A stretch of 11,953 nucleotides of DNA from Phycisphaera sp. (GTDB taxonomy: Bacteria > Planctomycetota > Phycisphaerae > Phycisphaerales > Phycisphaeraceae): positions 1-11,953 of the forward strand of contig JARFRI010000237.1 in assembly GCA_029287335.1 (NCBI GenBank), in the 5' to 3' direction. This document shows positions 1,433-10,162 of this stretch, one piece after another (positions within the stretch are counted from its first letter, which is position 1; each line of letters begins with the position of its first letter). A program made the position numbers and the translations under genes. The notes below the pieces were generated by a model, which was given only the letters and a program-made list of their open reading frames with translations, searched no databases and had not been told where the DNA came from.

Positions 1433-4156
1433 TCAGCCTGTGTTGCGCAGGCCTGCGGCAATAGCTTGGACGCTTTGTCGCAAGAGGTCGCCCTGCGGGT
1501 CAACCCCTCGGCGGATTAGCTCGACCTGGATCAGGTTGAGCGGGTCGATGTACGGGTTGCGGACACGGACCGAACGCTGCAACCAATCGATACCCGAGAG
1601 CAAGTCGTCGCGCTGGGCGGTGTCGAGTACGAGCGCGCGAGTGCGGTCGTACTCGGTACAGATCGTTTCGAACAGCCGCATGCTCTGGCCGTCGTTGACG
1701 AGTTCTGCGTAGTGCCTGGCGATCTGCATGTCGCACTTGGCCAGCGCCAACTCGGCGTTATGAATCATCCCGCGGAACATCGGCCAACCGGCGTACATCG
1801 CCCGGCGGGTCTTGAGGTCGATGCCGCTGAGGCCCGTCCCCAGGCCGTACCAGCCGGTGAGCAGATGGCGGTTTTGGGTCCAGGCAAACGTGTACGGGAT
1901 CGCGCGGAGGTCTTTGAGTTCGCGGGCGCCGCGTCGTCGGCTGGGGCGTGACCCGATGGGCATCGTCTCGATCGTATTGATCGGCGTGGCCTTGTCGAAG
2001 TAGGCAAGGAACGCAGGGTCGTCGCGCAGCGTGCGGTAACAAGCGGTGGATACTTGCGAGGCGTTGGCCAGTTGGTCCTTCCACGTCGGCTCAATCTTGT
2101 CCGCCGACTCGGCGCTGACCAGCAGCGTCGCCCAGGCGACCTGTTCGACGTGGCGGAAGGCGACTTCAGGATCGTCGTAACGTTCGGAGAGGACCTCGCC
2201 TTGTTCGGTGATACGGACTTTGTATCCGACGGCTTCGGGTGGCAGTGATAGCACGCCCCGCGCGGCCGGCCCACCGCCTCGGCCTAGTGCGCCGCCTCGG
2301 CCGTGGAACAGGACCAAGCCGATGCCGTGTTGTTTGGCGGTGGTGGCCAGTCGGGTTTGTGCGTCGAATAGGCCGTAGTTCGAGGCGAGATATCCGCCGT
2401 CCTTGCACGAGTCCGAGTAGCCGACCATGCACATCTGTCGGCCGCCCGTCGCTTGGACGTGGGCCATGTAGGGCTTACTGGAAAGCAGCGCATCAAGCGT
2501 CTGGTCAGCGTTGGCCAGGTCGTCGATGGTCTCGAACAGCGGCGCGATGGGCAGCATTGCTCGCGGCTGTTCGTAGCCGCGCAGTTTGGCGGCGAGTCGA
2601 CCCAACCAACCCATCGCCAGTACGTCGCTTGGGTCGTGCGTCATCGAGATGATCAGCGCCCCGAGTGCTTCGGTGCCCAAGTGCTCGGCTGCTTGCTCCA
2701 GCAAGACGAACAACTCGACGGTGTTGCGCGTCGGCTCGGTGAGATCGTCAAGCTTGAGCTGTTCTGTCTCAAGTGTGACGGCGCTGCTGAGTAGTGCTTG
2801 GCGCGCCATCTCGTCCATCGCGTTGTAGTCGGTCTTGGGGTCAAGCTTGCTGAGTACTTCCGCGATCGTGCTGTGCAGTTGTCGGGAGTCTTCGCGGATG
2901 TCCAGCCGGGCAAAGTGCAGGCCGAAGACAGCGATGCGGTCCTGCCAGCCCTGTACATCCCCGTCGGCCAACTCTTCGTGCCCGTTTTCACGCAAGGAGT
3001 CAGCGATGACTTGGAGGTCCGCAGACAACGCGGCCGAGTCGCGATAGGCCAAGTCATTGGCGCCTTGGACCGGGTCGGTTTCTGCGGCGGCGAGTAATCG
3101 GTGACGAATCACGCGCAGGGCTCGGCGGTACGTTTCATGCGGGCTGATCTGGTCGATCGACTCGTTGAGCTGGGGCCACTTCTCGCGGGCCTGCTTGATG
3201 ATCTCGCGGACCTCATCGTTCACGGGGTGGTGCTTGTCGGAGATGCTCAGCACGCGGGCCAGGTGCCGACAAAAGACCGCGTGTTTCTCGACGATGGCAC
3301 GGCGGAGGTGGACCAGTGTTTTACGCGTCACCTCGGGCGTGACGAACGGGTTGCCGTCACGGTCGCCTCCAATCCATGAGCCGAAGCGGACCACGACCGG
3401 CAGTATCGGCGTGTTGTCGGGGTAGGCTTGGCTGAGCGCTCGGCGGGTCGAGCGGCAGAGCTGGGGCACGACCTCCCAGAGCGACTCGACGACGAACAAG
3501 CTGCGGTCGACTTCTTCAAGGACGCTGGGCTTGTTGGGCCGAAGCGTGTCGGTCTCCCACAGGCAGTCCAGGTTGGCACGGATGCGTCGGACTAATTCGT
3601 CGCGCTCACGGTGGAGCATGTCCGGCCGATCAAGCTGGATCAAGTCGTCGCGCAGCCGACGCAGCGTCAAGCGGATGGTCTTGCGCTTGGCCTCGGTGGG
3701 GTGGGCGGTAAAGACCAGGTCGACATCAAGCTCATTGAGCATCTGCTGCATCTGCTCGGCACTGACGCCTTGATCTGCGAGTTTGGTAATCGCTTGGCCC
3801 AGAGATTGGTTGCGTGGGCCTGGCCAGGTGTCCTGCTCGCGCTCGCGCAGCACGCGGATGCGGTGGCGGTCCTCGGCAAGGTTGGCGAGGTCAAAGAAGC
3901 ACGCTAGCGCGCGCATCAGTTCACCCATCTCGTCCTCGGCCATCGCGGCGATGCGGTCGCGCAGCGTCTGATCGGCCAGGGCATCGCCATCACGTCGGCT
4001 TTTGGCCAACGCGCGGACCTCTTCGACCAGGTCGTATAGCCCATCGCTGCCGTGGGATTTAAGGACCTTGCCCAGTTCGTAGCCAAGCATGCGCACGTCG
4101 CGACGCAGTGGGAAGTCCGGCGGGGTGTCCGTCGTTTGTGTTTGGGTGTTATTCAT
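1433..4156 (-). CDS. ppc: Phosphoenolpyruvate carboxylase
   Basis: This cytoplasmic enzyme carboxylates PEP with bicarbonate to give oxaloacetate and phosphate, an anaplerotic entry to the TCA cycle. The 907-residue length is normal for bacterial PEPC. Catalytic landmarks are FTAHPTEA with His152 (E. coli His138), GGDRDGNP at 263-270, GYSDSCKDGG at 579-588, and FHGRGG with His618 and Arg620 (E. coli His579 and Arg581). LRAIPYTFAWTQNR lies at 750-763, and the chain ends in the typical RNTG. Residues matching the E. coli aspartate inhibitor site are present (Arg626, Lys807, Arg866, Asn905), so feedback inhibition by aspartate or malate is likely. The ATG at 4156 lies 12 bases after the carbonic anhydrase stop, with only a weak ribosome site, which suggests translation coupled to that gene. 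It is the last gene of the proposed bicarbonate operon. Confidence 0.98.
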   Translation of the reverse strand: MNNTQTQTTDTPPDFPLRRDVRMLGYELGKVLKSHGSDGLYDLVEEVRALAKSRRDGDALADQTLRDRIAAMAEDEMGELMRALACFFDLANLAEDRHRIRVLREREQDTWPGPRNQSLGQAITKLADQGVSAEQMQQMLNELDVDLVFTAHPTEAKRKTIRLTLRRLRDDLIQLDRPDMLHRERDELVRRIRANLDCLWETDTLRPNKPSVLEEVDRSLFVVESLWEVVPQLCRSTRRALSQAYPDNTPILPVVVRFGSWIGGDRDGNPFVTPEVTRKTLVHLRRAIVEKHAVFCRHLARVLSISDKHHPVNDEVREIIKQAREKWPQLNESIDQISPHETYRRALRVIRHRLLAAAETDPVQGANDLAYRDSAALSADLQVIADSLRENGHEELADGDVQGWQDRIAVFGLHFARLDIREDSRQLHSTIAEVLSKLDPKTDYNAMDEMARQALLSSAVTLETEQLKLDDLTEPTRNTVELFVLLEQAAEHLGTEALGALIISMTHDPSDVLAMGWLGRLAAKLRGYEQPRAMLPIAPLFETIDDLANADQTLDALLSSKPYMAHVQATGGRQMCMVGYSDSCKDGGYLASNYGLFDAQTRLATTAKQHGIGLVLFHGRGGALGRGGGPAARGVLSLPPEAVGYKVRITEQGEVLSERYDDPEVAFRHVEQVAWATLLVSAESADKIEPTWKDQLANASQVSTACYRTLRDDPAFLAYFDKATPINTIETMPIGSRPSRRRGARELKDLRAIPYTFAWTQNRHLLTGWYGLGTGLSGIDLKTRRAMYAGWPMFRGMIHNAELALAKCDMQIARHYAELVNDGQSMRLFETICTEYDRTRALVLDTAQRDDLLSGIDWLQRSVRVRNPYIDPLNLIQVELIRRGVDPQGDLLRQSVQAIAAGLRNTG

Positions 4157-4168
4157 GGTCTTTGCCGA

Positions 4169-4681
4169 TCAGCCGCATTCCACTTCGTGCAGTTGGCCGG
4201 TCGTGACATCATAAGTAAAGCCGCGGATCGTCGTGTCTTGAGGGATCCAAGGGTGTGATCGCAATCGGGCGACTTGATCCATGACATGACGATTCAGTTC
4301 GGTAAAAGCGTAAAAGTCCAGTGGCGTATGGTTGGTCGGCCCATACTTTTCGTTAAGTTGTTCGTGCAGGCCGTGGTCGGTGCAGGCCATCATGCCGCAG
4401 CCGGTATGGTTGATGACCATGATCTCTCGTGTGCTCAAGGCGTTGGTTGACACGATGGCTGATCGGAGAACATCGTCTGTCACGGTGCCACCCGCATTCC
4501 GGAGGATGTGGGCGTCGCCATAGTTCAGGCCTAGCGCGGTTTGGATATTGATCCGCGCGTCCATACATGCGATGACCAGCAGCTTGCGAAGCGGCGGGGC
4601 GCTAAGATCGGCACCGGTAAACGTTCGTGAATAGCCAACGTTGTGTTCGAGAACATGATCGATAGCAGAAGTCTGGTTCAT
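4169..4681 (-). CDS. Beta-class carbonic anhydrase
   Basis: The product interconverts CO2 and bicarbonate. At 170 residues it is a short beta-class enzyme. Zinc ligands are visible as Cys39 in CMDAR, His92 and Cys95 in HTGCG, and the Asp41-Arg43 pair of the CMDAR motif completes the classical active site. RNAGG at 61-65 is also typical of the family. I chose the ATG at 4681, 27 bases after the sbtB stop. A GGAG lies 14 bases before it, a long spacing. An in-frame TTG at 4705 would add eight residues but has no ribosome site. The gene sits between sbtB and ppc, 12 bases from ppc. Its likely job is to balance the bicarbonate pool, either by hydrating respiratory CO2 or by equilibrating imported bicarbonate for PEPC. 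No signal peptide is seen, so it should be cytoplasmic. Confidence 0.95.
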   Translation of the reverse strand: MNQTSAIDHVLEHNVGYSRTFTGADLSAPPLRKLLVIACMDARINIQTALGLNYGDAHILRNAGGTVTDDVLRSAIVSTNALSTREIMVINHTGCGMMACTDHGLHEQLNEKYGPTNHTPLDFYAFTELNRHVMDQVARLRSHPWIPQDTTIRGFTYDVTTGQLHEVECG

Positions 4682-4708
4682 GCATTTGGATTGTACTCCA
4701 AGCAAGAA

Positions 4709-5002
4709 TCAGTGCTTAAGCCACTGGGCATCACTGATCAAGCACATCCCGCCATAGCGTTCAAGCAGGGGTCTTGCGGCGTCGAGCAGCTTCTGTTCGA
4801 TCTCGGCGCCCGCCGCAACGATGATGTAGCAGTTGCGGTAGACGTTGGATAGCTCGTCGCCTGTCCGGTCGCCTCGATCGCCCGATCCCTGGACATCCCG
4901 GATCAGTGTGTAGCCGGTCGCTCCGACGGACTTGATCATCCGCACCAGTTCCGGGGTGTGGGCCGCGTCGATAACGAATTCAATTCGTTTGATTTGTTCC
5001 AT
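4709..5002 (-). CDS. sbtB: SbtB-like PII-family regulator of the bicarbonate transporter
   Basis: This 97-residue protein has the PII-like ferredoxin fold pattern: a first beta strand (IKRIEFVID), helix (TPELVRMIKSVG), the GATGYTLI segment at 27-34 that resembles GAKGYTVM of cyanobacterial SbtB, a Gly/Asp/Arg-rich T-loop at about 36-55, then strand, helix and strand. In cyanobacteria SbtB trimers bind adenine nucleotides including cAMP and gate SbtA. This copy ends at residue 97 and has no C-terminal extension with the cysteine pair (CGPxGC, the R-loop) found in many cyanobacterial SbtBs, so redox control of that type should be absent. Its ATG is 2 bases past the sbtA stop, and a GGAG at 5009-5012 lies within the end of sbtA, pointing to coupled translation. 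The pairing with sbtA is the strongest evidence for the name. Confidence 0.85.
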   Translation of the reverse strand: MEQIKRIEFVIDAAHTPELVRMIKSVGATGYTLIRDVQGSGDRGDRTGDELSNVYRNCYIIVAAGAEIEQKLLDAARPLLERYGGMCLISDAQWLKH

Positions 5003-5004
5003 GG

Positions 5005-5976
5005 CTAGCTCCAGAGCGACTGAATGATGCTGTAGTAAAGCGGGATGCCGATGATGACATTAAACGGGAAGGTGAGGCCCAGCGACATCGGCACGTAGAG
5101 GCTGGGATTGGCCTTGGGGATCGCCAGGCGGACTGCGGCGGGTACCGCAATGTAGCTCGCTCCACCGACCAGCACCGCTAACAGCAGTGCGTCTCCCTGT
5201 GAGGCACCTAGCAGCTTGGCGATCAGGATGCCCAGCATGGCATGTACCACCGCTGCGATGATCGAGAAGGCGATGAGGAAGACGCCCGAGGATTTGAGGT
5301 CTTTAATACGCCTCGCCGCGACCAGACCCATGTCCAGAAGGAACAGGCAGAGCACGCCCTTAAACGGGTCGTAGGCCAGAGGCTTGACGCTCTCCCATCC
5401 TTTTTCGCCGGTCGAGAAGCCGATGATCAGGCTGCCCATGAGCACCAGGACCGAGCCATTGAGAAAGGCCTCACGTCCAAGCGACCCCCAGTTCATCGGC
5501 TTACCCGTTTCACGATCACCCAACCAGCGGGCCAGCAGGACGCCGACAACAATTGCGGGCGACTCCATGAGTGCCATGGCCGCGATCATGTGTCCGCTGT
5601 ATTCGACGCCCTCGGATTTAAGGAAACTCACTGCGGTGATGAAGGTGACCGCCGAGACCGAGCCGTAGGTCGCGGCGATCGCCGCGGCGTCGTGTGCGGG
5701 CAGTTTCCACCGCAAGATCGCAAAGCACCAGAACGGGACGATGAAGGATGTCGCCGACGCCGCGCCAAGCATCCATAACACATCGATCGATAGATCACTC
5801 TCGGCGAGTTTGTGTCCCCCCTGAAAGCCGATTGCAAACAGCAGGTACAGCGAGAGGAAACGCGCGACCTGGGTCGGCATCTCTAGGTCCGATTTGACCA
5901 GCGTGGCAAACACCCCGAGCAGGAAAAACAGGATCGGTGGGCTCAGGAGGTTATCCAGAACAAGATCAAGATTCAT
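5005..5976 (-). CDS. sbtA: Sodium-dependent bicarbonate transporter, SbtA family permease
   Basis: This 323-residue protein is strongly hydrophobic, with about ten membrane segments in two similar halves. The Gly/Ser-rich stretch YGSVSAVTFITA at 104-115 matches the GAVSGSTMAAA region of cyanobacterial SbtA, and GGASYIAVPAAVRLAIPKANPS at about 271-292 matches the second half's SSSDISGPPTLRAGIPSANPS region; these two sites form the substrate pocket in the known family. SbtA imports bicarbonate with sodium across the inner membrane. Compared with the roughly 370-residue cyanobacterial protein, the central cytoplasmic loop is much shorter (about residues 150-170). Immediate pairing with sbtB supports the assignment. 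The ATG at 5976 follows hpf by 49 bases with only a weak ribosome site. Transport of another small anion cannot be ruled out from sequence alone. Confidence 0.92.
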   Translation of the reverse strand: MNLDLVLDNLLSPPILFFLLGVFATLVKSDLEMPTQVARFLSLYLLFAIGFQGGHKLAESDLSIDVLWMLGAASATSFIVPFWCFAILRWKLPAHDAAAIAATYGSVSAVTFITAVSFLKSEGVEYSGHMIAAMALMESPAIVVGVLLARWLGDRETGKPMNWGSLGREAFLNGSVLVLMGSLIIGFSTGEKGWESVKPLAYDPFKGVLCLFLLDMGLVAARRIKDLKSSGVFLIAFSIIAAVVHAMLGILIAKLLGASQGDALLLAVLVGGASYIAVPAAVRLAIPKANPSLYVPMSLGLTFPFNVIIGIPLYYSIIQSLWS

Positions 5977-6025: not shown

Positions 6026-6346
6026 TCAAGCCTTGTTGCGTCGGTCATGAAGTTTTGCGAGTTGTCGGCCAACGCGACGCTTGACCTTGTCCGCAATCAG
6101 ACTCACGTTAGCGTAAAGGTCCAGTCCCCGTCGTTGGTGACGGAACTTCATACCGTTGGTCAGGCTTACGACGACGCGACAGACCTGATCGACTCCGCCA
6201 CGCGGGCCGTTCTCGTCCTCAATGACAACTTCAACGCGCGAAACGCGTGAAGCATGTTGATCAAGGGCGGCATTGAGGCGTGCACGGATGTGGCTGCGGA
6301 TTGGTTCTGTCAGGTCGGCACCACGGCTGGCAATAATCATCTGCAT
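6026..6346 (-). CDS. hpf: Short HPF/RaiA-family ribosome hibernation factor
   Basis: The 106-residue product has the beta-alpha-beta-beta-beta-alpha layout of HPF/RaiA proteins: strand (MQMIIAS), helix (LTEPIRSHIRARLNAALDQH), strand (VSRVEVVIED), NGPRGGVDQVCRVVVSL, and a basic C-terminal helix (ADKVKRRVGRQLAKLHDRR). The family binds the 30S decoding region and inactivates or dimerises ribosomes in stationary phase or stress. This is the short form without the dimerising C-terminal domain. An AGGAG at 6353-6357, six bases before the ATG, is a strong ribosome site, and a near-consensus promoter lies about 40 bases upstream. It is probably the first gene of the transcript that continues into sbtA, sbtB, the carbonic anhydrase and ppc. 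That link is inferred from spacing alone. Confidence 0.88.
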   Translation of the reverse strand: MQMIIASRGADLTEPIRSHIRARLNAALDQHASRVSRVEVVIEDENGPRGGVDQVCRVVVSLTNGMKFRHQRRGLDLYANVSLIADKVKRRVGRQLAKLHDRRNKA

Positions 6347-6383
6347 GACGGACTCCTGATTTGGGATGAATTACATTACGCGA

Positions 6384-6400
6384 AATATACTTCATATATT
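6384..6400. promoter_or_regulatory. Inverted repeat overlapping the -10 box, candidate operator
   Basis: Perfect 6-base arms AATATA (6384-6389) and TATATT (6395-6400) flank a 5-base centre. One arm is the -10 box itself, so a dimer bound here would block RNA polymerase. The winged-helix gene whose stop is only 50 bases away is a natural candidate to bind it. AT-rich palindromes can arise by chance, so the operator role is an inference. Confidence 0.4.
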
Positions 6401-6412
6401 AAACGATGTCAA
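6384..6412 (-). promoter_or_regulatory. Sigma-70 type promoter for hpf and the bicarbonate operon
   Basis: Read on the minus strand there is a perfect TTGACA (6412-6407), a 17-base spacer, and TATATT (6389-6384). The hpf ATG lies 37 bases after the -10 box, so the leader would be about 30 bases and contains the AGGAG site. The surrounding 100-base gap is markedly AT-rich compared with the rest of the window. It is the best promoter match I can find here. Confidence 0.8.
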
Positions 6413-6449: not shown

Positions 6450-6764
6450 TCAGACGCCTTTGCGCACCATATCAAGGAGATCTTTCACCTGGCGGTGGCC
6501 CTCAACAGGGTGGCGCAGAGATCGGCCTTCTTTGATCGTGTAGTGGTTGCATCGGCCGACACGCTTTCGAATCAAGACGCCGCCCTCTTCGAGTTCGAGC
6601 ACGATCTTTTGCACGGCCCGCTCGGTAATCCCAACCTTATTGGCGACCTCTCGCAGCAACATGTCAGGCTGCATCGCCAGACAGATCAGCACGTGCGAGT
6701 GGTTGGTCAGGAACGTCCAGTTCGAGGTCTTGGTCGTCGGCTTGTCGATGTTTGGCTCGGCCAT
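6450..6764 (-). CDS. Small winged helix-turn-helix transcriptional regulator (MarR/ArsR-like)
   Basis: This is a 104-residue single-domain DNA-binding protein. After a short disordered start, WTFLTNHSHVLICLAMQ is the first helix. LLREVANKVGITERAVQKIVLELEEGGVLIRKRVGR at about residues 36-71 contains the helix-turn-helix (VANKVGITERAVQKIV) and the recognition helix and wing, followed by CNHYTIK. A basic C-terminal helix contains HRQVKDLLDMV. No ligand-binding domain or metal-binding cysteine cluster is visible. It is 24 bases downstream of purK on the same strand and may be transcribed with it. It precedes the promoter of the hpf-sbtA-sbtB-CA-ppc genes, so it may control that operon. Its effector and target are unknown. 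The start has only a weak ribosome site (GAGA). Confidence 0.8.
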   Translation of the reverse strand: MAEPNIDKPTTKTSNWTFLTNHSHVLICLAMQPDMLLREVANKVGITERAVQKIVLELEEGGVLIRKRVGRCNHYTIKEGRSLRHPVEGHRQVKDLLDMVRKGV

Positions 6765-6788: not shown

Positions 6789-7982
6789 TTACCCGCGTTC
6801 GAGCGGTGGACGAGGGGTCACCTTCGATCGGGCTTCGACCGCGTCGCGGATTGCTTCATGGGGCGTCCGCGCTAAAGCGGTGAGGTGGCCCATCTTTCGG
6901 CCCGGCCGAGCCTGAGCTTTGCCATACAAATGCAGGTGCAAGGTATCGCCCGCCTCAAGCAGTCCCCACAAAGGAGCATCCGCCACTTCCCTCGCTGGCC
7001 AAAGATCACCCAGCAGGTTCACCATCGCGGCGGGCTGTTTGAGTTCAATGGGCAACGGCGGTTGACCCAGGACGCAGGCCACCTGCTGGTCGAACTGGCT
7101 GTAGGTGTACGCGTCGATTGTGAGGTGGCCGGAGTTGTGCGGGCGCGGGGCAAGCTCGTTGACGAGCATTTTGCCGTCTCGTGTTTGAAAGAACTCGACG
7201 CAGAGCACGCCGACAACATCGAGTTTCTCCATCACTCTTTTAGCGATGGCGACAGCCTCCGCTTCGACGTTTTTGGGGGCACCGCTGGGGACGACGGAGA
7301 TATCCAGGATGTGGTTGCGGTGGGTATTGGCGATCGGACCATAAGTGACGACCTCGCCGTTGACACCTCGTGCCGCGACAATGGAGACCTCTTGCTCAAA
7401 GTCGATGAAGCCCTCGTAGACGCAGGGCTGCTTGCCCAGGTCTTCCCATGCATAAATCAGCCCGGCCTCATCAGCCGAGTGCAGCACGCGCTGGCCCTTG
7501 CCGTCGTACCCGCCGCTGGCTGTCTTTAGCACGGCAGGCGAGCCGATGGTCTTTGCTGCCTCGCGCAACCCTTCCAACGACTCAACCTTCGCAAACGGCC
7601 CGACGGGAATGCCGTGAGACTGTAGCGTTGTCTTCTCTACAATTCGGTCCTGTGCCACGGCGAGGACTTGCTGTCCAGGTCGAACCGGGCAGTGCTTGGC
7701 ACACGCCGCAGCCGTCGCCGCAGGGACGTTCTCAAACTCATACGTCACCGCATCGACGGACTGTGCAAATTTTTCCACCGCATCAAGATCGTTGTATGCC
7801 GCGATGGTCTTGTGATCGCACACTTGGGTCGCGGGCTCGCCATCGCCGGGGCAAAACACGTGCGTCTTGATACCCGCGCGTTTAGCCGCATGGCAAAACA
7901 TCTGCCCGAGCTGGCCGCCGCCGAGCATGCCGATCACATTTGGTGATTGGGTGATTTGGCGATGTGGTGAAGTATCAGTCAT
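6789..7982 (-). CDS. purK: N5-carboxyaminoimidazole ribonucleotide synthase
   Basis: PurK uses ATP and bicarbonate to carboxylate AIR to N5-CAIR in purine synthesis; PurE then isomerises it, but no purE is in this window. The 397-residue ATP-grasp protein has the N-terminal GMLGGGQLGQM at 18-28, YEFENVP at 81-87, the ATP-binding KTASGGYDGKGQ at 153-164, and the catalytic NELAPRPHNSGH at 275-286. The C-terminal domain is complete. The start is uncertain. From the ATG at 7982, residues 5-15 (SPHRQITQSPN) are encoded by a tandem repeat and are atypical; a GTG at 7937 (residue 16) would give a chain beginning near the usual GGGQLG. A TACAAT at 7998-7993 is a possible -10 box only 10 bases before the ATG, which also favours an internal start or a leaderless message. 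Confidence 0.95.
   Translation of the reverse strand: MTDTSPHRQITQSPNVIGMLGGGQLGQMFCHAAKRAGIKTHVFCPGDGEPATQVCDHKTIAAYNDLDAVEKFAQSVDAVTYEFENVPAATAAACAKHCPVRPGQQVLAVAQDRIVEKTTLQSHGIPVGPFAKVESLEGLREAAKTIGSPAVLKTASGGYDGKGQRVLHSADEAGLIYAWEDLGKQPCVYEGFIDFEQEVSIVAARGVNGEVVTYGPIANTHRNHILDISVVPSGAPKNVEAEAVAIAKRVMEKLDVVGVLCVEFFQTRDGKMLVNELAPRPHNSGHLTIDAYTYSQFDQQVACVLGQPPLPIELKQPAAMVNLLGDLWPAREVADAPLWGLLEAGDTLHLHLYGKAQARPGRKMGHLTALARTPHEAIRDAVEARSKVTPRPPLERG
7939..7970 (+). repeat. Four tandem 8-base units TTTGGTGA inside the purK start
   Basis: Units are TTTGGTGA, TTGGGTGA, TTTGGCGA and TGTGGTGA, end to end, covering codons 5-15 of purK as annotated. The same unit recurs in the opposite orientation at 8072-8102, so the two blocks form a widely spaced inverted pair around the purK-panD gap. 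Confidence 0.75.
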
Positions 7983-8071: not shown

Positions 8072-8102
8072 TCACCAAATCGAAATTCACCAAATCACAG
8101 AA
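8072..8102 (-). repeat. Inverted counterpart of the TTTGGTGA repeat at the panD stop
   Basis: On the plus strand TCACCAAA occurs at 8072-8079 and 8087-8094, followed by TCACAGAA; these are the complement of the units at 7939-7970. The panD stop codon (8095-8097) falls inside this block, so the repeat may supply the stop. Confidence 0.65.
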
Positions 8103-8487
8103 TGGCAGGCTGGTCCACATCGCTGTGATACTTCAGGAGTTGATCGACGCGGTTGTGTTCGTCGCAGAGGACGACGTTGGCCTCATGGCCTTGCACTTCT
8201 TGCTCGTTGAGCAGGCCGTAGGTCAGGATGATGACCTTGTGGCCGACCTCGGTAAGCTTGGCCGCGGCACCGTTGATTTCGATCTTCCCGCTACCGGGGG
8301 CACCACGAATGATGTAGGTCTCAAACCGCTGGGCGTTGTCGATGTCCAGGATCCAGACCGCTTCGTTGGGGCGCATGCCAGCAGCGACCAGCAGGTCCGC
8401 ATCGATCGTGATCGAGCCGACGTAGTCGGGGTCGCACCGCGTGACGGTCGCGCGGTGGATTTTGCTGGTCATCATCTTTCTAAGCAT
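8095..8487 (-). CDS. panD: Aspartate 1-decarboxylase
   Basis: PanD decarboxylates L-aspartate to beta-alanine for pantothenate and coenzyme A. It is made as a proenzyme that cleaves itself to create a pyruvoyl group. The 130-residue product aligns with the E. coli enzyme without shift at the key sites: Lys9, His11, Tyr22, the Gly24-Ser25 cleavage pair, Arg54, Thr57-Tyr58, and the INGAAA segment with Asn72. I chose the ATG at 8487 because GGGAGG (8496-8501) sits eight bases before it and the chain then starts like other PanDs. The same frame is open to 8640, but the added 51 residues do not resemble the family. It is divergent from the photolyase gene. Aspartate comes from oxaloacetate, the PEPC product, which gives a metabolic link to the downstream operon. 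Transcription with purK across a 112-base gap is uncertain. Confidence 0.96.
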   Translation of the reverse strand: MLRKMMTSKIHRATVTRCDPDYVGSITIDADLLVAAGMRPNEAVWILDIDNAQRFETYIIRGAPGSGKIEINGAAAKLTEVGHKVIILTYGLLNEQEVQGHEANVVLCDEHNRVDQLLKYHSDVDQPAIL

Positions 8488-8495
8488 GGTCTTGG

Positions 8496-8501
8496 CCTCC
8501 C
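8496..8501 (-). promoter_or_regulatory. Strong ribosome binding site that fixes the panD start
   Basis: GGGAGG on the minus strand, eight bases before the ATG at 8487. It decides between this start and in-frame upstream ATGs near 8526 and 8640. Confidence 0.8.
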
Positions 8502-8527
8502 TCAAACGAGGGGATTTCCCAAACATT

Positions 8528-8556
8528 ATTGTAGGGCCGGTAAACCTTAACGTCGA
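8528..8556 (-). promoter_or_regulatory. Possible panD promoter
   Basis: On the minus strand TCGACG (8556-8551, four of six bases match TTGACA) is followed after 17 bases by TACAAT (8533-8528). The leader would be about 35 bases and include the GGGAGG site. It lies in the divergent gap between panD and the photolyase gene. Confidence 0.45.
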
Positions 8557-8615
8557 GCCTGAAATGTCCTGCCTACGATGTCCCATGCCTATTCTATACA
8601 ACGACTCAACCCGCC

Positions 8616-10162
<1,547 letters not shown>

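Follow-up and report, generated by a model that had tools for sequence, protein, structure and literature searches.

Known SbtA proteins have been described mainly as feeders of RuBisCO, and one of the closest described counterparts of the locus examined here is the cyanobacterial SbtA/SbtB pair represented by Slr1512. We analysed a contig of 11,953 nucleotides (JARFRI010000237.1, the window) from a metagenome-assembled genome (MAG) of Phycisphaera sp. (GCA_029287335.1; 2.33 Mb in 419 contigs, 70% complete). In this window, genes for a bicarbonate transporter homologue (sbtA), an SbtB-like protein of the PII family, a β-carbonic anhydrase (CA) and phosphoenolpyruvate carboxylase (PEPC, encoded by ppc) form one string with purK, a winged-helix gene and an hpf-like gene. 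The window resembles the cyanobacterial system in the transporter fold, in the PII-like gene directly after sbtA and in the residues Ser114 and Ser324. In contrast, the window SbtA has two other contact residues, Tyr140 and Ser327, replaced, the CGPxGC loop is missing, and the partners of the transporter are ppc and purK, with RuBisCO not found. We interpret the string, with a probability of roughly 0.68, as a locally regulated operon through which a member of the Phycisphaeraceae, probably a heterotroph, provides biosynthesis with bicarbonate.

MpsAB and the DAB system, which are kin, provide a further point of comparison. MpsABC of Staphylococcus aureus supplies bicarbonate for carboxylation in a non-autotroph (PMC11394868), as we propose for the window, whereas the window transporter is of another type; the winged-helix family of the window stands beside dabB-dabA in six genomes of Planctomycetota. 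In the dissolved inorganic carbon toolkits of autotrophs, as in the window, a transporter and CA stand beside a carboxylase, but there genes of autotrophic fixation are co-located and here biosynthetic carboxylases (PMC10880623). A second cyanobacterial type, SbtA2, has its own PII-like protein, SbtB2 (PMC13249358), as in the window, and the two transporters are probably of one clade. The individual parts of the system were already known, while in the available parts of the literature examined we found neither the repeated association of sbtA with purK nor the candidate regulator with its DNA site described.

Linkage of sbtA with purK, ppc and carbonic anhydrase genes

Profile searches for Sbt, PurK and PEPC covered a phylum sample of 392 genomes. 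Sbt was kept in 64 of 67 genomes (G145, G181, G417 and secondary weak places were excluded), PurK at a threshold of at least 280 bits in 104 of 113, and PEPC in all 96, with secondary fragments excluded. Sbt and PurK occurred together in 46 genomes and lay within 5 kb of each other in 13, always on the same strand and, in nine of the 13, at a distance of 71-175 bases by profile ends. Random placement predicts about 0.13 linked genomes among the 46, a rough value calculated with a 12-kb target and the genome sizes of the 13 linked cases, and the odds ratio for co-occurrence of sbtA and purK was 11.9 in statistics that ignore kinship. Sbt and PEPC were within 5 kb in only three of the 30 genomes with both, one of these with a ppc remnant; a fourth case (G334) has its ppc cut by the contig end. 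PEPC and PurK were that close in 5/52 genomes. A sequence-only reading of the window had placed a bicarbonate-using sink next to the importer, which holds, and had named PEPC as that sink, which is not supported: purK is the commoner sbtA partner. In a quick tree of SbtA (60 of 75 rows), purK linkage (18 rows) showed 13 changes and ppc linkage (7 rows) five, with the same counts for all 75 rows, of which one (G383) was read in a wrong frame; linkage is therefore recurrent, by gain or by loss. Additionally, four genomes from two more families have CA beside sbtAB, as CA-sbtA-sbtB in two of f30 and as sbtA-sbtB-CA in two of f32.

We also inspected named loci, the best 80 in the SbtA alignment, with up to 10 kb fetched on each side and many contigs short. 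The CA gene was found right after sbtB in 13 of the 80, all cyanobacterial, and purK within about 2 kb of sbtA in three loci outside Planctomycetota (L122, L159, L172). The sbtA-sbtB-CA strings of the window SbtA clade in cyanobacteria are found at L104 (9995-12014) and 12 further loci. A widespread sbtA-ppc pair was rejected, as ppc occurred in only one of these 80 loci (L093), which belongs to the congener G002.

Within the order, SbtA of this type was present in 14/61 genomes and PEPC in 28/61. CA adjoins ppc in all five genus members searched; purK and CA-ppc share one cluster in four of them, and sbtAB is part of it in three. In G004, purK is on a separate contig from CA-ppc because a contig break falls inside sbtA. 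The order sbtA-sbtB-CA-ppc is retained in the congeners G002 and G004, and an hpf-like gene is at the same place in two congeners. In G002, another sbtA, of the Slr1512-like type, and the PII-like gene that accompanies it are situated between sbtB and CA (L020, 3006-4436), so that both SbtA types stand in tandem. In G001, a one-contig genome, ppc is split over two overlapping frames (L073, 7969-10769), a frameshift that is either real or due to sequencing.

Outside the genus, G026 carries purK divergent from sbtA-sbtB-HTH-ppc, and G033 carries sbtA-sbtB-HTH followed by a ppc remnant; ppc was found there only as this C-terminal piece (L027, 7103-7621). The genes sbtA and ppc were at least 49 kb apart or on different contigs in G007, G013, G024, G037, G042 and G050, and no ppc was found in the sbtA carriers G021, G031 and G038. 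The anticipated recurrence of SbtA near ppc was seen in the genus and in G026, G033 and G334, and failed as a general pattern (3/30 genomes). The gene order, likewise, is retained in the genus and sporadically in other lineages, while two of the five genus members have no sbtA and most carriers in the phylum sample have no ppc nearby.

RuBisCO, by which a carboxysomal CO2-concentrating mechanism would be recognised, gave no match in the own genome (70% complete) or in the four congeners G001-G004 (89-100% complete). Weak matches of 32-90 bits were present in 4/61 relatives, one of which, G024, carries sbtA. The expectation of a RuBisCO-free host is supported by the searches of the own genome and its congeners. 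On the missing RuBisCO alone, the host is taken to be a probable heterotroph.

Similarity of the window SbtA and SbtB-like proteins to known structures

The predicted model of the window SbtA (mean pLDDT 87) was compared with known structures, and the five best folds were all chains of Synechocystis SbtA (TM 0.77-0.86, E 7e-15 to 2e-11), with 26% identity in the structure match. As evident from the sequence searches, the protein is far from Slr1512 (81 bits) and belongs to a clade apart from it, which holds cyanobacterial, Bacteroidota, Aquificota and Brocadia copies; it contains Synechococcus and Nostoc copies that are 52-57% identical to the window SbtA. The residues of Synechocystis SbtA that contact bicarbonate are Ser114, Tyr140, Ser324 and Ser327 (PMC8352866). 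Both pocket changes are clade-wide, cyanobacterial members included: position 140 holds Met, Leu, Val or Ile instead of Tyr in 58/58 clade rows, and Ser327 is replaced by Ala in 57 rows and by Val in one. The SbtA2 family of marine Synechococcus takes up bicarbonate and has its own SbtB2 (PMC13249358), and the window clade is probably SbtA2. Recurrence of purK, ppc and CA genes next to sbtA favours bicarbonate as the substrate that this little-tested clade transports.

A PII-like gene follows sbtA directly, as expected of sbtB. The nearest solved chains of its product are 5d4n and 5d4l, and Cyanobium SbtB is next with a far weaker match. We take 5d4n, the nearest solved relative, to be CPII of Thiomonas; CPII is a carboxysome-associated protein. 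In the alignment, the C-terminal CGPxGC redox loop, which is present in some SbtB proteins only, is absent from the window protein of 97 aa, which ends in DAQWLKH. We therefore refer to it as SbtB-like and not as a canonical redox SbtB.

Bicarbonate-consuming enzymes and carbonic anhydrase

The window PEPC aligns almost end to end with E. coli PEPC, and 1fiy is the best structure match. The motifs TAHPTE and FHGRGG.LGRGG and the C-terminal RNTG are present; these His/Arg motifs and RNTG have catalytic roles, and Lys773, Arg832 and Asn881 of the E. coli enzyme belong to the bacterial aspartate site. All three residues are retained in the window PEPC, as would be expected of an anaplerotic enzyme. 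PurK is the second bicarbonate-consuming enzyme of the neighbourhood, and its use of HCO3- is described in PMC10880623.

The nearest solved structures of the CA are 3las and 1ylk, and its motifs CMDAR and HTGCG align with Rv1284. β-Carbonic anhydrases bind zinc through Cys/His/Cys ligands and contain an Asp-Arg dyad, and both the ligands and the dyad were found in the window protein. The CA was also matched by the carbonyl sulfide (COS) hydrolase 3vqj and the CS2 hydrolase 3ten, and its substrate is therefore not certain.

A winged-helix family and its candidate operator

In the alignment of the winged-helix family, TF..NH.HV and LRHP.E are invariant. The family is large (3521 proteins at E ≤0.001), and a PDB search with the window protein returned three matches, all of them weak (E 0.012 to 0.11). 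The search for the gene covered 56 of the 64 Sbt genomes; G000, G007 and G033 were covered separately, and G397, G208, G360, G378 and G306 were excluded. It was within 5 kb of sbtA in 9/22 carriers. Among 37 copies, a set biased to Sbt genomes by this choice and uneven in its sampling of genera, 23 were within 5 kb of sbtA, purK-sbtA, ppc, CA-ppc or dabBA, and these represent 14 genera. In six genomes other than the nine with sbtA nearby, five of them of one genus, the gene stands beside dabB-dabA. Such neighbours had not been sought beforehand; DabA and DabB were matched in all six, with Pfam support for DabA in G377, G391 and G425 and for DabB-like domains in G377, G235 and G344.

Beside this gene we found a recurrent palindrome, CGAA-N6-TTCG. 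Exact copies were present within 300 bp upstream of 13/37 winged-helix copies and in 12/1345 control stretches from the same loci, and spacers of 3-5 and 7-9 bases gave 0 or 1 exact copies. With a 20-base consensus, a score of at least 12 of 14 was reached in 14/37 flanks and in 3/914 controls. Upstream of the winged-helix gene in L193 and L181, the sequence CGAC-N6-GTCG occurs, in which the candidate operator's symmetry and spacing are kept with changes on both sides. In G002 and G003, the exact palindrome is downstream of the winged-helix gene, before hpf and CA, and the gene and its targets are co-directional; G004 has a one-mismatch palindrome at another place in the gap. The candidate operator of the window is centred on the -10 hexamer (6384-6389) of a promoter-like site, and the arrangement is similar by eye in G002 and G003. 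In shuffles of the 103-base gap, a one-mismatch copy was reached in 69/2000 and the 20-base score of the window site, 11/14, in 13/2000. The window palindrome is probably a repressor site, as predicted from its sequence and position. Where the winged-helix gene is elsewhere, no exact palindrome was seen by eye in the few hundred bases ahead of sbtA or ppc in the fetched loci, and we therefore propose only local control.

Isocitrate dehydrogenase adjoins the winged-helix gene in two copies with no inorganic-carbon neighbour detected, L197 (7028-9016; G013) and L180 (G413), which are of different families. Genes of the hpf-like (Ribosomal_S30AE) type are near inorganic-carbon genes in the window (6026-6346), L183 (13447-13785), L185 (1927-2274), L186 (13513-13860) and L204 (8804-9232); they come first in the sbtA operon of the window, behind dabBA in one genus and about 1 kb from purK-sbtA in G383.

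Proposed function and alternative explanations

In the mechanism that we propose, SbtA would import HCO3- with Na+ and would be gated by the PII-like SbtB, while a cytoplasmic pool of CO2 and HCO3- would be interconverted by the β-CA, whereby respiratory CO2 may also be retained as HCO3-. This pool would feed PEPC for oxaloacetate, PurK for purines and presumably other HCO3- enzymes encoded elsewhere. The genes hpf-sbtA-sbtB-CA-ppc are likely a single transcript because the promoter-like site precedes hpf. The winged-helix protein probably represses this promoter through CGAA-N6-TTCG over the -10 box, and repression would be lifted when inorganic carbon is short. More tentatively, and at odds that we put below even, Planctomycetota may possess a control unit not described before, in which a small autoregulated winged-helix repressor with the operator CGAA-N6-TTCG switches adjacent sbtAB, purK-sbtA, CA-ppc or dabBA. 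Such a unit would tune bicarbonate import to biosynthetic and not to photosynthetic demand. Judging by this locus, cells may arrange their bicarbonate supply to serve biosynthesis, and photosynthesis need not be its only purpose. The recurrent pairing of sbtA with purK, ppc and CA may explain, in a way that can be tested, why many non-autotrophs have SbtA-like genes, and the locus also yields a candidate regulator together with its defined DNA site.

Several observations weigh against this interpretation. The own genome is incomplete, two of the five genus members have no sbtA though they are 98% complete, and, of the 11 sbtA carriers in the other 56 genomes of the order, only two have ppc within 5 kb, one as a remnant. 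Only two of the four bicarbonate contacts are kept in the window SbtA. No HCO3- uptake was obtained with an SbtA-like protein of the non-cyanobacterial Labrenzia in E. coli or with an oceanic α-cyanobacterial SbtA in a cyanobacterium (PMC4275256). For the regulator, 14/37 winged-helix copies have no Dab, Sbt, PurK, PEPC or CA neighbour at E 1e-5, some of them in stretches that end near the gene (L193, L194). The 20-base consensus came from the very loci that were then scored with it. The contrast weakens when one mismatch is allowed, the palindrome then being present upstream of 20/37 copies and in 17% of controls, and the window's own palindrome is such a one-mismatch copy. Across all fetched loci, spacer 6 gave 91 exact copies, spacer 3 also 91 and the others 40-63; the signal is therefore the position beside the gene and not the total. 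G026 and G033 have the winged-helix gene beside sbtA and ppc (a remnant in G033), yet no good palindrome was found there.

The pocket changes and the inactive Labrenzia protein would also be accommodated if the SbtA homologue carried another small anion, such as formate or a monocarboxylate, and owed its place to regulation shared with carbon metabolism; mutation of a Shewanella homologue, SO_3758, leads to formate tolerance (PMC12093963). However, the recurrent neighbours purK, CA and ppc have bicarbonate in common, CA follows sbtB in cyanobacterial loci of the same clade, and the SbtA2 of marine Synechococcus, probably of this clade, takes up bicarbonate (PMC13249358), so that we regard another substrate as unlikely. 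We give the same low weight to the C4-like feed put forward by the sequence-only reading, with PEPC as the one enzyme for which bicarbonate would be concentrated. Such a feed would agree with the adjacency of CA and ppc throughout the genus, with the gaps of 2-27 bases in sbtA-sbtB-CA-ppc and with sbtA-sbtB-HTH-ppc in another genus (G026). Against it, purK is the commoner partner, sbtA-ppc is rare (one of the best 80 named loci; four genomes of the phylum sample, one with a ppc remnant), and no C4-acid decarboxylase (malic enzyme or PEP carboxykinase) or compartment gene is among the window Pfam matches, the genome not having been searched for them. The gene string is better supported as bicarbonate provisioning for biosynthetic carboxylation, with PurK and PEPC as sinks.

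It is very improbable that the genes are ordinary neighbours without functional coupling, or brought together by binning: their linkage in several unrelated families is far above random placement, even though sbtA is missing from two genus members and is not linked to ppc in most sbtA genomes. Chance or a binning artefact was rejected, as the assemblies of G002 and G004 show the same order.

Gene organization of the window

The features of the window are listed in Table 1. The string runs from purK through the winged-helix gene, hpf, sbtA, sbtB and CA to ppc, all on the minus strand, with recomputed gaps of 24, 103, 49, 2, 27 and 12 bases. Open reading frames and Pfam matches thus confirm the head-to-tail order sbtA-sbtB-CA-ppc with gaps of 2, 27 and 12 bases, as first described, and bear out the four family identities. 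The interval originally assigned, 1433-5976, should extend further upstream, where purK, the winged-helix gene and hpf are part of the same neighbourhood.

Table 1. Positions and supporting matches of genes and candidate sites in the window.
Feature	Position	Strand	Remarks
purK (N5-carboxyaminoimidazole ribonucleotide synthase)	6789..7982	-	Pfam ATP-grasp and PurK_C; TIGR01161 363 bits, above cut-off
Winged-helix (HTH_24/MarR-like) protein, 104 aa, candidate local regulator	6450..6764	-	HTH_24 under cut-off
Promoter-like site, TTGACA-17-TATATT	6384..6412	-	11/12 consensus match; ahead of hpf-sbtA-sbtB-CA-ppc
Candidate operator	6378..6397	-	Core TGAA-N6-TTCG at 6381-6394; one mismatch to CGAA-N6-TTCG
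hpf-like gene	6026..6346	-	Pfam Ribosomal_S30AE; first gene past the promoter-like site
sbtA, Na+/bicarbonate symporter family	5005..5976	-	Sbt_1 405 bits (cut-off 27)
sbtB-like PII-family gene	4709..5002	-	P-II 46 bits
β-Carbonic anhydrase, short (Rv1284-like)	4169..4681 from its ATG	-	Pro_CA 61 bits
ppc, PEP carboxylase, 907 aa	1433..4156	-	PEPcase 889 bits over whole profile; NF000584 above cut-off

No Rfam families or tRNAs were found in the window. An HlyD-type adaptor gene is next after ppc, 136 bases away. At the other end of the string, panD (8095-8640) adjoins purK, as it also does in the congeners G001, G003 and G004.

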